64,000 nt of DNA from NCBI RefSeq assembly GCF_042100115.1, contig NC_091280.1, positions 62,001-126,000 on the forward strand, given 5' to 3'. The notes below the pieces were generated by a model that saw nothing but the letters and a program-made list of their open reading frames with translations, was not told the DNA's origin and searched no databases. Source of the stretch: Alternaria dauci (Eukaryota > Ascomycota > Dothideomycetes > Pleosporales > Pleosporaceae). Position numbers and translations under genes: made by a program. Positions 19,269 through 57,724 of the stretch are shown here, one piece after another (positions within the stretch are counted from its first letter, which is position 1; each line of letters begins with the position of its first letter).

Positions 19269-19513
19269 AGCGAGGAGCGAGATGATCGCTGCGATCTTTT
19301 GGGCTGCGGTCTTTTGGGCAGATGTTGAGAGTCTTCGAACGGTCCGCTAAAATGGTTCTAATGCTTATTCGGTATGTTCCAGCCCGACATGCCAGCTACC
19401 ATCTCCATCGCAACATATGGTAGCTATAATTGCACCTATCGGGACGCGAGCTCAATGGTATATGGTATCGAACAAACACGCATCATGGTTCTGACTTGAT
19501 TTGTCTTGCTGGC

Positions 19514-52161: not shown

Positions 52162-53064
52162 TCATGAACTATCCTCGCTAATCGTGCCCTCGCTCGCCGA
52201 CGACAACGACGACGTCTTGCTGTCCGACGGCAAAGGACCTAATGTCCACCGCCAGTCCCGCGTGCGCTTCCGTCGACCAGCAACGGGCGTTTCGGGCGCA
52301 GAGTCGCTGTCGTCCTCGCTGCTCGACGAGTCTCTTTTCTCGCCCGTGCGCGGCGACCTTTTCGGTGAGCTCTCTACCGAGGAAGCGGTGCTGCTGATGG
52401 AGAGCTGGAGGGGCGATATGCTCGTATTTGACATGTTGAGCGCGGGCTTCAGACTCAGACTGGGTTTGCAGGCCTCGGCTTCAGATTCGCTGGATGACAG
52501 CGACGACAGCGTGGAGCTGCTCGACTCGAGATCGGAGTGTGCGAGGGTGTACTTTGTGGTTGTGATTTCCTCTTCGAGCGGCGTGCGGAACGACACGCGC
52601 TTTGCGGCGGGGAACATGGGGCGGGTGGAGGAGCCCATCTTGCGTGGTATTATCGCGCGGGCGGGGCTGTTTGCGAGGATGGACGAGAGGTTGTGGGGCT
52701 GCTTGTAGGGTATTGAGCTGGTGGCCGAGTCTGTGGACGCGGATGTGGCTGTTGAGGAGAGGGTGGATGCTGAGCTGGGCGTGGCGGGCTGTGCTTGGGG
52801 TACAGTAGCCGGGCGTTCATAGGCGTTGGAAAAGGTGTTGCGGACGGTGGGCGATACGGCAGAGAGAGTTTCGAGTCGCAGACTGGCGCCTTTGCCCAAG
52901 ATGCGCGGTTGCTCCGTGTTGATGGACAGTTTGGGACGCCGCGGGGCCTGGCGCGGCGGGGGTATTATAGGCAGCTGGGTGGTGGTCATACTGGACATGG
53001 CAGATGATTGCGAGTACGGCGGCGTCGTCGAGGGGTGTGATGGCTGCAGAGTGGACAGCATCAT
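52162..53064 (-). CDS. Ser-rich protein with a PP1-docking (RVxF) motif
   Basis: Single exon, 300 aa. Mostly disordered Ser/Thr/Pro-rich sequence with three conserved-looking islands: APRRPKLSINTEQPRILGKG near residue 40, AAKRVSFRTPLEEEITTTKY at 153-171, and GRRKRTRDWRWTLGPLPSDS at 263-282. KRVSF is a textbook RVxF docking site for protein phosphatase 1, and the acidic EEEI after it is usual. The last island, with two Trp in a basic context, may bind another partner. A PP1 regulatory or scaffold subunit is inferred; I know no named family for it. Confidence 0.7.
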   Translation of the reverse strand: MMLSTLQPSHPSTTPPYSQSSAMSSMTTTQLPIIPPPRQAPRRPKLSINTEQPRILGKGASLRLETLSAVSPTVRNTFSNAYERPATVPQAQPATPSSASTLSSTATSASTDSATSSIPYKQPHNLSSILANSPARAIIPRKMGSSTRPMFPAAKRVSFRTPLEEEITTTKYTLAHSDLESSSSTLSSLSSSESEAEACKPSLSLKPALNMSNTSISPLQLSISSTASSVESSPKRSPRTGEKRDSSSSEDDSDSAPETPVAGRRKRTRDWRWTLGPLPSDSKTSSLSSASEGTISEDSS

Positions 53065-53575
53065 GTGTATGGGCGTGCTGGTGGGGTGGGGGGAGGCAGG
53101 CAGATGATGTGTGGGCGAGGGGAGCCGATTATCACGACTACTAACGGCGACAAAGACAGGGCAGGCCCGAGTGCTAGAGGGGCATGTCCCTATTAACCAT
53201 TAACCACACCCGTCGTCTGCAATGCCCTTAGCAAATCGTCCGTGTGGATCCGCAGCGGCGGCGCTCAAGAACACGAAGCGCCTGGCCGGGGCGCTGCTCC
53301 CAAAATACCCACCCGCACTAGGCCGCTCCAAAGATAGATGCAGCGTGGCAAATGGCGTCGTCGTCGCTCCCTGCCCACTGCGCTCGCCTAGCGCCCTCAG
53401 CACCGCCATTGGCCCATGCCCCCCCTCGACCACTCCACCCACCTGCACCACCGGTCGGGGCTTCACGCGCGCTTCATCTGCTGCACGCCGCCGAAACATT
53501 TCTGCTGCTTGCTTCACACTGCAACACACACGTGCATCGGCGCTTCTCCGCCCCTCTCCATCGCAACAGCTTCCC
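53065..53575. other. Divergent promoter region, PP1-motif gene/pol iota
   Basis: 511 bp, C-rich toward 53575. No specific element claimed. Confidence 0.45.
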
Positions 53576-56411
53576 ATGAAGAAGGTGAAACGCCAGTCCG
53601 ACGCCGTCATCGTCCACTTTGTTCGTAAGCACCACGCACAGCCTTGACGCCTTGGTCGCCCTAACTCTTGTCTCGTATCGCTCCCAGGACTACGTACGTA
53701 CACCACGTGCGCCCCACGCTTGCGCAATCCAGTAACGCTCTTTTTCTTCCACACAGGACTGCTTCTACGCCAGCGTCTTTGAACATGAGAACCCGGCGCT
53801 GCGCAGCTTGCCACTGGCCGTGCAGCAGAAACAGATTGTCGTCACATGCAACTACGAGGCCCGCCGACGCGTACGAAATCAGACCGTGTCTTGTTTGTCG
53901 CTCTTGCCATGATGACTGAATATCACCACAGGGACTCCGCAAACTGCAGCTGATCACCGAAGCGAAGAAGATCTGTCCCGATGTAGTCATTGTCCTTGGC
54001 GAGGATCTTACTCGTTTCCGCAATGCGTCCAAACTGCTATACTCGTTCCTGCGGTCCTTTTCCTGGAACGAGCGTGTAGAAAGGTTAGGCTTTGATGAGG
54101 TAGGTTTGTCGTCACTTCGATTCCCTTGCCTGTCCGTAGTGCTCGTCGTGTCTCAACACCGCCACTGTCGTCCATTCCATCCTCTCCTAGTCTTTTCCAA
54201 GATTCGCCTTCCCTGCGGTATCCGATCGTCTAAATTTCCTCACCGTCTCTATATACAGTATACAATGATCCAGTGCGCGAGTCATCATGCTGAGTCTCAG
54301 CGACCTAGGTCTTCCTAGACATCACCGACATCATCGACTACAACATCAGCATCCTCAACCCAAACGATCTGCACAACGCCTTCTTCTGTCTCGCAAAGGA
54401 CGATCCTACACGCGGCTTTCTGTACGATGCGACGACGCTGACGGGCCATTTGTATCCCAAGACGGCGAGTTGTAATTTAGGTAAGCGGACATGGCTGTAT
54501 TACGTATACGATGTGGCGTAGTGGGCACATGTTAGTTAAGCTGGATTGGGCGCATTGCAAGGCTGACCGTCTCCTTGCTGAATCCCTGCGGCTGGTGAGA
54601 CGAGTGACTGCGGCTGTGGTGCTGCCACCAACAGTACTGAAGTTGGACGGTGCGAGATGACATTGTGCACAATAGAGGATAGCCGTGCAGTCCAGAGAAC
54701 TAATGCATTTCCAGAAACTTATTCGCTGGGAACCACAGCGCCGAACTTGCTGCATCTGCGGTTGGCGCTAGGCAGTCACTTTGCGCAGTACCTTCGTACC
54801 AAACTCACGCAAGATACGGGGTATACGGCTACCGTTGGTATTTCTACCAATAAGCTTTTGGCCAAGCTGGTAGGCAACACGCATAAGCCTGATGCGCAAA
54901 CCACTCTCGTTCCGTCGTATACTGAGCATGGAGATGTTGGCGTGGATACCGACAACATAGCCACCTTCATCGACGACCACGAAGTCGGTCAGATCCCTGG
55001 CATTGGCTTCAAAATCGCACAGAAACTGCGTGCTCACGTGCTACAACGGCCCGCAGACTTTGACGCCGGCCTTGTGTATGGCGGCACGAAGGAATCTGTG
55101 CTAGTCCGCCATGTAAGAACGTGGCCTGGTATGGGTCCCGAGGCGCTCGAACGCTTACTCGCTGGTCCGGGTGTGCCGCATGGTATTGGTACACGCATCT
55201 GGGGCTTGCTGAATGGATGTGATGACAAGGACGTGGGGCAGGCGCGAGAAGTGCCCCGGCAGATTAGTATCGAGGATAGTTATTTGCGGTTGGATTCGTT
55301 AGAGCAGGTGAGCAAGGAGCTGGCGATGCTGGCGAGGAGGTTGCTGGAGAGGATGTATGTGGATCTTTTGGACGACAACGATGATGATCTCGACGGTCAA
55401 GATCCAGGCGCACATACGTCGAAGTCGGGAAAGCGGTGGCTCGCGCACCCGAAGATGTTACGTCTGTCGACGCGCCCGCGGCCGCCGAGGAATGCGGATG
55501 GAAGTCGTGATAGGTCGTTTGCGCGCATCTCGAAATCGGTGCCTATGCCTGCGTTTGTGTTTAGTCTTAATGGGACGACGACGAGCACCGATGGTATTGG
55601 TGATAAGCTGCTGCGCGAGGCGTTGCTGCCGTTGTTTCGGAAACTGCATCCGGAGAAGCGGGGGTGGGATTTGAGTCTGGTCAATGTTGCGGCAACGAAT
55701 ATGGTGGATGCGGCGAGGGAGAGGGGCGGTGTTGGAAGGGATATTGGGAAGATGTTTAGGAGGCAGGAGGAGGTGCTTGGGCGGTGGAGGGTGGAAGAGG
55801 AGCCGGAGGAGCCGAAGGACGCTCGAGTTGAACGGGAAGGGATGGTGGGGAAAGAGCATGGTTCGTTTGAGCGGGGAGAGGTGATGATGGACGAGGGCGA
55901 TGGGGGGAGTAGGGAAGAAGACTGGGTTGTCGAGGAGCCTGAGGCTCACATCCGGAAAGAAACAGAAGACGATGACGATGGGGAATGGCTGATGGAAGAG
56001 GAGCTTGCTCATACCGAACCACGCTTCCTCATAATGCAGGCGTTGACCCAAACCCAGCAAGAAAATTCCGGCCAAGGCGAACAAATCCTAATGATGCACT
56101 CACCATCCTCAACCCAATCATCAGAAAAAGAACAAGAACAAAAAGACCAAACACCCAACGACCCCTGGCTCACCGAATGGAAACGTCAACTCGCAGAAGA
56201 CAACGCCGTCCTGCAAAGACATGGCTCCGAAGACTTTCCTACAGCGTCGCAAGAAGTCGAGTCTACTGTTGCTGATGCTTGGGTGTCGGAGGAAGAAGAA
56301 GATGGTGATGCGGATATGATGGACGGGGACACGTTTCGGTGCGAGGAGTGTGGTGCGGTTATGCCAATGTTTGCGTTGGGGGCGCATTATCGGTGGCATG
56401 AGGAGATTTAG
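53576..56411 (+). CDS. Y-family DNA polymerase iota
   Basis: Six exons, 53576-53620, 53688-53693, 53757-53870, 53932-54099, 54309-54480 and 54715-56411, giving 733 aa. A translesion polymerase. Motif I is VIVHF + DY + DCFYASVFE: its D-Y comes from the 6-nt second exon, and this Asp is a metal ligand. The second acidic pair is in GFDE|VFLDITD at an exon junction. The palm and fingers continue with VTCNYEARRRGLRKLQLI, and the thumb HhH with VGISTNKLLAKLVGNTHKPD and VGQIPGIGFKIAQKL. The little-finger domain ends near RGWDLSLVNVAATNM. The C-terminal FRCEECGAVMPMFALGAHYR followed by WH is a UBZ-like C2H2 ubiquitin-binding finger. An ATG at 54657 is not the start. Confidence 0.88.
53688..53693 (+). 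other. 6-nt micro-exon of the pol iota gene
   Basis: GACTAC (Asp-Tyr), flanked by CTCCCAG on the left and GTACGT on the right. Introns of 67 nt and 63 nt flank it, each with a plausible branch site (CTAAC; AGTAACG). It restores the D-Y-D motif in frame. Confidence 0.75.
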
Positions 56412-56664
56412 GTGGAGAGTTTACATCTCTGACCCTAGAGTAGCACCAAGCGGTATATGATGAATGCTCGTAGAGGGACTAGAGTTCCATATGCATACTG
56501 ATTGTGCGTATTAATACACACCGCTTGTACGTTACATTTCACATCTCCGTACCTTCCGTCATCGCTATAAGAGCAGAGTACAGATTCTTCGCCTTCAACT
56601 CTGTCAATCTTTCAACTTCAATGTCGTTGTTGTACAGTTTGATACATGCGCTCTCCTACTCCAT

Positions 56665-57463
56665 CTACATCTCCACCCTCGGTCCATTCGCCGGCGCAGA
56701 TGATGACGCATCCGGAATCCTCGCAGCCGTCTGCTCAAGCGGCTCCTTCCTCCTCGGCCTCTTCAGATCCTCCACCGTAATCCCATTCAACCCCACCTTC
56801 GTCAGCCCCATAACCGGCGCATCGCCCTTCTTCACAAACTCATACAACCCCGGCAACTTATTCCCCGCCAGCCTAAACGCATCCCGCACAACCTGCTCGT
56901 GCAAGTCTCCCTGAATCTCAAAAATAATCTTACTCACCGCCACCCTCGCCGTCCACCGATCAAAGCTCCCCTTACCCTTTCCCATGCGCACATCGTTGCC
57001 AGACGTGTACACACCGATGTTCGCAGCAACGCGCATGTACAGCCTGAACTTCATGCCTCGGAGACGCTTGCGGATCGTTTCCTCGGCGATGCGCAGTTGG
57101 TGCGCGGAAATGCGGCGGTCGTGGTCGCGCATGCGCAGGCCGTAGTCGCCCCAGACGACAGTCGTGCCGCGCATGGAGCCGCCTGTGGGCACGCGGCAGC
57201 GCCCTTTGCGTGACTTGCGCGACTCACCGGCTTTGGGGGCGAGGTAGTTGAGGCGGGTGGGGGTGCTGGAGAAGAGGCGGGCGTGGGAGAGAGGACTGGG
57301 TGTGAGGGATTGGGGTTTGGCGAGGCATGTCTGTTGGAGGACTTTGGGGTATTAGCGGAGGCGGGGAGGGAGATGTAGATGTCGTACGTGTTGGCCGCGG
57401 TGCGGAGATGTAGAGGCGGCTGAATTGAGCCAGCAGGCTTTGGGATATCCTTGGTGGCGGCAT
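56665..57463 (-). CDS. mrpl16: Mitochondrial large-subunit ribosomal protein L16
   Basis: Two exons, 57388-57463 and 56665-57341, giving 250 aa. The junction (GTACGA...CCAAAG, 46 nt) is the only one I found that keeps frame, and it uses an AAG acceptor, so it is provisional. The L16 core is clear: SRKSRKGRCRVPTGGSMRGT, GDYGLRMRDHDRRISAHQL, GMKFRLYMRVAANIGVYTSG and MGKGKGSFDRWTARVAVSKI. The first exon is Arg/Ser-rich as in a mitochondrial targeting peptide. The C-terminal tail is Pro/Ala-rich. Divergent with RFC1 across 281 bp. Confidence 0.82.
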
Positions 57464-57724
57464 GGCGTTATGATGTGATGTTGGACTCGTAGTGCTCGGT
57501 CACTTTGGTGTTGAAGTTCTGATGCCAAGATCTGGGTGTGGCTGCTGTGGCGCATGCGGGGTGTGGCGTCGATGCGCCTGCCTAATTGCCTAATGACCGC
57601 GCGAAGTCGCGTCGTGCACGTCAACGGCGCCTGGCGTTCATCAATCCACCCAAACCCCATTCTCACCCATTGTTGGGCCCGACAACTGTCTGCGAACGCG
57701 ACACAGATTCCGATACTGAACTGT

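Follow-up and report, generated by a model that had tools for sequence, protein, structure and literature searches.

A putative six-nucleotide microexon supplying the catalytic Asp-Tyr pair of DNA polymerase iota in Alternaria dauci

Functional microexons were presented in a 2024 paper as previously undescribed in filamentous fungi, with earlier tests in S. pombe being cited (PMC11121469). The case reported there, from the Trichoderma gene Xlr2, is an internal exon of 20 nt that encodes zinc-finger cysteines, is conserved in the genus, and responds to glucose, as followed by RNA-Seq and RT-PCR (PMC11121469). In other Pezizomycotina, introns crowd a tiny exon II of the Aspergillus rtnA gene (15-24 nt in Aspergilli), which codes for a disordered region and can be skipped or lost, and in the stwintrons treated in the same paper a splice signal of one intron is interrupted by another (PMC6616335). 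Plant microexons (<=15 nt), described as small, conserved, and often misannotated, were found with the aid of 990 RNA-Seq datasets (PMC8831610). For the polymerase itself, exon 2 of mammalian POLI (42 codons, residues 14-55) carries the catalytic Asp D34, and the splice variant lacking this exon is reported as inactive, as is, completely, a human D34A mutant (PMC3031609). The active-site residues of human Pol iota are given as D34, D126, and E127, with D34 and D126 holding metal B and the backbone of L35 contacting the dNTP phosphates (PMC5341039). Among fungi, the Pol iota of Thermomyces lanuginosus has been cloned, from a gene stated to have two introns (PMC8595933). Among the titles and abstract openings listed in searches of an open-access library, none reports a microexon for a polymerase that is fungal or belongs to the Y family, which makes for a weak negative.

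Here, a six-nucleotide exon is proposed in the POLI gene of Alternaria dauci. Like the Xlr2 exon, it would be a tiny internal exon of a filamentous ascomycete that holds essential residues and is missed by annotation; the Xlr2 exon is not a multiple of three in length, whereas the POLI exon is in frame and is known from sequence alone. With the plant microexons it shares small size, frequent misannotation, and, apparently, conservation, although it was deduced from DNA and protein models rather than from transcript data. It would carry the same catalytic Asp as mammalian POLI exon 2, in two codons rather than 42. As with rtnA exon II, the flanking introns crowd a very small exon; in contrast to that exon, the six bases code for a catalytic motif. 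A stwintron was considered and rejected because no splice signal is split: the donor of intron 2 (GTACGT) stands intact 6 nt past intron 1, both introns are complete, and the six intervening bases are coding.

The DNA analyzed is a window of 64,000 nt (G000:C9:62001-126000) from a genome of 34.9 Mb in 10 contigs, and all coordinates below are those of the window. The gene lies on the plus strand. Exon 1 (53576-53620, MKKVKRQSDAVIVHF) matches the Alternaria rosae protein model P0004 (MKKLKRQTDSVIVHF) and is followed by intron 1 (53621-53687, 67 nt, GTTCGT...CTCCCAG), the GACTAC exon (53688-53693), and intron 2 (53694-53756, 63 nt), which has the donor GTACGT, a pyrimidine tract, and the acceptor CCACACAG. 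Exon 3 (53757-53870) starts with DCFYASVFE, and, after an intron of 61 nt, exon 4 (53932-54099) ends with the second catalytic pair, D110-E111 (RLGFDE). Exon 5 (54309-54480) was placed by splicing and alignment, and exon 6 (54715-56411) runs to the stop codon, with a start that is uncertain by a few codons because the residues ETYSL are without counterpart in P0004. Joined with GACTAC included, the six exons give one frame of 733 aa without an internal stop (MKKVKRQSDAVIVHF-DY-DCFYASVFE...). The preliminary description, whose sequence and coordinates for this region match the window letters, had exon 1 ending in VIVHF, the long exon opening with DCFYASVFE, and GACTAC lying between CTCCCAG and GTACGT with introns of normal length; sequence and splicing agree with it on each of these points. 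It had also placed branch sites in both introns, which holds for intron 1 (CTAAC at 53661) and fails for intron 2, where no YTNAY occurs and GTAAC at 53732 is the only similar string; intron 3 is likewise without YTNAY.

Introns 4 (54100-54308, 209 nt) and 5 (54481-54714, 234 nt) are three to four times as long as the others in the gene. Open frames on the minus strand adjoin POLI at 56665-57351 and 52162-53199; one of them, on the 5' side of POLI and oriented away from it, is Ser/Thr-rich, and the other is a putative mitochondrial ribosomal protein L16. Rfam gave no matches across 52500-57500, and the predicted RNA structure around the GACTAC exon was not unusual (z +1.37). Elsewhere in the genome, an identical string beginning GTTCGTGCAATTAGCG was found, among the matches listed, at 19447, 6958537, 6983191, 7008466, and 7033738 of contig C1 and at 19664 of contig C2, that is, near the starts of both contigs and, on C1, at four further sites around 7 Mb; it is possibly a subtelomeric repeat.

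The spliced product is identified as a DNA polymerase iota, with predicted error-prone activity. It contains an IMS (impB/mucB/samB) domain (PF00817, 134.9 bits against a Pfam cut-off of 23.2), and its best match among solved chains is Pol iota 2dpi (1.5e-45), which we take to be the human enzyme, followed by Pol eta (3.5e-19), Pol kappa (3.7e-18), and REV1 (1.1e-13). Judged by their best solved matches, distinct genes for Pol eta (on C7) and for Pol kappa (on C4) are present in the same genome, and a further IMS match on C2 is probably REV1. When GACTAC is included, Asp16-Tyr17 fall on Asp34-Leu35 of 2dpi and D110-E111 on D126-E127, such that the carboxylates equivalent to D34, D126, and E127 are all present. 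The match to 2dpi, the alignment with D34, and the models of relatives thus lend inferential support to the earlier proposal that the 6-nt exon encodes the catalytic Asp. NCBIfam searches with the homolog P0004 were uninformative, returning bacterial polymerase models only, all below their cut-offs. At the C terminus (56334-56408, FRCEECGAVMPMFALGAHYRWHEEI), a C-x2-C...H-x3-H finger without a Pfam call has its four ligands invariant in 16 aligned fungal homologs; we assume a resemblance to the UBZ-type finger found in Pol eta. In animal Pol iota, UBM motifs take the place of such a finger.

To be counted as a microexon, a segment was expected to be internal, at most 30 nt long, bordered by AG and GT, and needed for a conserved motif. 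CAG-GACTAC-GTACGT has this form at 6 nt, and within the 136-nt gap between exons 1 and 3 no other in-frame exon of <=45 nt could supply D-Y. Another in-frame exon of <=45 nt was sought by enumerating all AG...GT pairs that leave 35 nt or more on either side, and this candidate class was rejected, as GACTAC alone was left. The arrangement goes beyond chance: in dinucleotide shuffles of the gap, the pattern AG-GAYTAY-GT with at least 40 nt on either side arose in 10 of 200,000 cases, and the stricter YAG-GAYTAY-GTRNGT in 0 of 200,000. AG-GAYTAY-GT was also absent from 120,000 positions on both strands of the window outside 53000-57000. Across the 34.9 Mb genome, the pattern CAGGAYTAYGTNNGT has three occurrences, one of which is this locus, compared to two for a reversed control pattern.

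The donors of the two introns differ in quality. GTACGT, which opens intron 2, ranks second among 256 donor hexamers by the frequency of an intron-like 3' end downstream (19/109 in a 264-kb sample). GTTCGT, which opens intron 1, ranks 71st (11/131, 8.4%), against a baseline of 7.2% for all GTNNNN in the same sample; genome-wide, it has 297 matches before intron-like 3' ends versus 515 for the reversed pattern and is therefore not enriched. The out-of-frame GTAAGC that overlaps it 4 nt downstream, at 53625, is enriched genome-wide (711 versus 313), yet ranks only 153rd in the 264-kb sample (6/92), where the order of the two donors is the opposite; the reversed-pattern control behind the genome-wide figures is crude, and a single donor may be counted more than once. 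The in-frame donor GTTCGT looks weak in this genome. Overlapping donors 4 bases apart open both introns (53621-53630, GTTCGTAAGC; 53694-53701, GTACGTACAC), and use of the second of the pair shifts the frame in either intron. The donor at 53625 was thus rejected as a route to a working protein because of its frameshift, which yields 26 aa with the exon and 24 aa without it. Retention of either intron, or use of the second donor of intron 2 (GTACAC, 53698), truncates the protein at 23-30 aa, and both +4 donors together do so at 64 aa; every computed alternative besides skipping thus ends within 23-64 aa. As a separate observation, the start of intron 1 (53621-53644), read from exon 1, gives VRKHHAQP-stop, compared to VRKHHTQP in the Pyrenophora seminiperda model P0009 (7/8 the same), a likeness that exceeds that of the adjoining exon residues (DAVIVHF versus DSIILHF, 4/7) and amounts to conservation of an intron start.

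Skipping of GACTAC is the exception. Since the exon length is a multiple of three, skipping keeps the frame and gives a protein of 731 aa that reads HF-D-CFY, in which the second Asp occupies the place of the first, leaving two residues fewer at the metal site. This product would be expected to be dead. The earlier suggestion that skipping removes a metal-binding residue while preserving the frame is accordingly right as to the frame and needs amending as to the residue, as one Asp stays.

Relatives were examined through their protein models. A protein search scored 7,997 candidates, from which the best 120 of 1,778 matches were taken; a second search with residues 1-60 of P0055 (best 120 of 441) contributed a further 55 models, none of them of the skip type, although its query is itself of the skip type and so favors such models. 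Sorted by their N termini, the pooled 175 full-length models among the matches listed comprise 124 with H[FL]DYD[CA]FY; nine with H[FL]-D[CA]FY, lacking exactly D-Y (P0007, P0028, P0032, P0036, P0051, P0053, P0055, P0069, and P0073); 13 with DYDCFY after other sequence or at a new start, P0214 included; eight with D[CA]FY and no D-Y, some of them partial records (P0003, P0009, P0024, P0026, P0041, P0054, P0060, and P0065); and 21 without D[CA]FY, some through a later start. The nine and the eight are all from Pleosporales, a placement obtained by taxonomy look-up for 15 of the 17 species and assumed by us for the remaining genera, Pyrenochaeta and Didymella. Within the class of 13, order could be assigned by name for only five, the other eight being without a species name, and none of the five belongs to Pleosporales: Coniosporium, Trichophyton, and Helicocarpus by taxonomy look-up, and Sclerotinia and Icmadophila as, presumably, Leotiomycetes and Lecanoromycetes. 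When the models listed are divided into 62 from Pleosporales (Zopfia being counted here though placed incertae sedis) and 113 others, mostly by name or recall and with unnamed rows counted as others, exact D-Y loss occurs in 9/62 versus 0/113 (Fisher, 5.9e-5), a figure that is descriptive because the models are not independent. Among the remaining Pleosporales models listed, D-Y is present in 26 assigned by name and in Zopfia, and 26 further models, some of them partial records, are without an intact motif. Several Alternaria Pol iota models in public databases (P0005, P0006, P0008, P0042, and P0087) lack the whole of exon 3 or start late. Annotation of the Pol iota family is thus poor even among close relatives.

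The form of these defects is informative. Had D-Y lain within exon 1 or exon 3, a gene predictor could hardly have dropped exactly six bases, and the skip-type models consequently point to a microexon; dropping D-Y leaves HF and DC as the ends of separate exons. D-Y is absent from the models of Plenodomus tracheiphilus, Didymella sp., and Paraphaeosphaeria sporulosa, and present in those of their congeners Plenodomus lingam, P. biglobosus, Didymella exigua, and Paraphaeosphaeria minitans; such a split within genera is what missed annotation should produce. Other models appear to read through intron sequence. The Alternaria panax model P0003 has TLVSYR-N-RTTY-DCFY, where intron 1 of the window gives TLVSYR-SQ before the exon, and its RTTY corresponds to AG-GACTAC-GTAC translated one base out of frame. 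Massariosphaeria P0026 has HF-VST-DCFY, as if a GTRAGT donor directly followed HF, and Pyrenophora seminiperda P0009, perhaps an odd model, crosses the gap without an obvious D-Y. Outside Pleosporales, or in sources that bear no species name, read-throughs affect the HF/DY junction only, as in P0214 (Trichophyton, HF-VSIPSCQI-DYDCFY) and in the nameless P0169 (HF-VGEFNSCPSISNSTIQ-DYDCFY) and P0082. These place the intron before DYDCFY; the read-throughs of Pleosporales place one before DCFY. In a search of short ORFs, 16 of 42 reach the motif: eight pass from Q straight into DCFY or DAFY, as CAG would give (P0121-P0124, P0126, P0127, P0131, and P0135), two from Q into DYDCFY (P0128 and P0129), four have uninterrupted HFDYD[CA]FY, one starts at DYDCFY, and P0134 (WT-DCFY) fits neither class; the 58-aa genomic-frame query contained Q-DCFY and so favors such matches, and these ORFs bear on the DY/DC intron only, not on the intron before D-Y. 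DNA of fungal relatives at this locus was sought in viral contigs, with none found, and in genome contigs, where the eight loci returned were seven bacterial and one archaeal and were left aside. The read-throughs and skip-type models are consistent, at the level of protein models, with both introns flanking D-Y in relatives.

Taken at the strength that sequence and models allow, GACTAC is very probably a genuine 6-nt POLI microexon that is included by default; it stands in phase 0 between two short introns and completes the conserved D-Y-D motif. That D-Y has instead been lost, or the gene is decaying, with GACTAC between splice-like sites by coincidence, draws on the weak first donor and the skip-type models of relatives; set against an otherwise intact 733-codon gene, the rarity of the pattern in shuffles, and the retention of D-Y after H[FL] in 124 models and before DCFY in 13 more among the 175 listed, this is extremely improbable. 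Most of the models that lack D-Y would be products of missed annotation rather than pictures of the working protein. The microexon reading has its own weak points, as some of the nine models with exact D-Y loss may rest on RNA reads, donor GTTCGT is poor next to a GTAAGC that is better supported genome-wide, intron 2 is without YTNAY, and the sequences P0009 and P0134 count against it.

Two further explanations accept the exon and differ on regulation, which is why the likelihoods assigned to these readings overlap. The preliminary description had gone as far as an on/off switch for a mutagenic polymerase, with in-frame skipping giving inactive and inclusion active Pol iota. The surviving frame of the skipped form (731 aa) and the occurrence of exactly this form in 9 of the 62 Pleosporales models listed fit such a switch, and precedents are described in the glucose-dependent microexon of Xlr2 (PMC11121469), in exon II of Aspergillus niger rtnA, included or skipped and 15 nt long in black Aspergilli (PMC6616335), and in the inactive mammalian Pol iota form that loses D34 with exon 2 (PMC3031609). 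No result obtained here shows regulated skipping, the inclusive models of congeners of three skip-type models are what annotation misses predict, and RNA structure around the exon is unremarkable, a weak point either way; the switch is left unsupported and is judged improbable. Alternatively, the choice may lie between donors rather than in skipping, with GTTCGT and GTAAGC competing and the 26-aa frameshift product of the latter serving, as unproductive splicing, to tune the gene. The genome-wide advantage of GTAAGC over its control, which GTTCGT lacks, is in keeping with this, as are model P0006 (HFVR...), in which a predictor seems to have picked a GTAAGC-type donor, and the intron start shared with Pyrenophora seminiperda P0009. 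The donor comparison is one of motif counts, however, which the 264-kb sample reverses, and Massariosphaeria P0026 seems to have a standard donor, making donor competition unlikely here. It is similarly doubtful that splicing sets the amount of active Pol iota across Pleosporales, for example under DNA damage, with skipping yielding dead enzyme and the wrong donor no protein, and a splicing control that matters is on the whole not to be expected.

For a microexon included by default, the simplest history suggested by the protein models starts from an older phase-0 intron at HF/DY, which other Pezizomycotina also carry; an ancestor of Pleosporales would later have gained another phase-0 intron at DY/DC, six bases downstream, leaving the 6-nt exon between the two. 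The two introns would then be removed each as a unit, one after the other, with the exon kept, and skipping would call for donor 1 to be spliced directly to acceptor 2, over a span of 136 nt that is feasible for an intron. Under intron definition, according to a review, splicing efficiency is set by the length of the intron and not of the exon (PMC8624252). If intron definition is assumed for this fungus, a length of 6 nt would be less of a handicap than under exon definition because exon length is then immaterial, and the earlier remark that such exons are near the limit of recognition would carry less weight, to the extent that this assumption holds.

If the proposed structure is true, the POLI gene of this filamentous fungus contains a very short coding exon, and without its two codons the enzyme should have no activity. 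The gene would also illustrate how a microexon can be born when an intron is acquired only six bases away from an existing one, and the public Pol iota models of Pleosporales would need checking.
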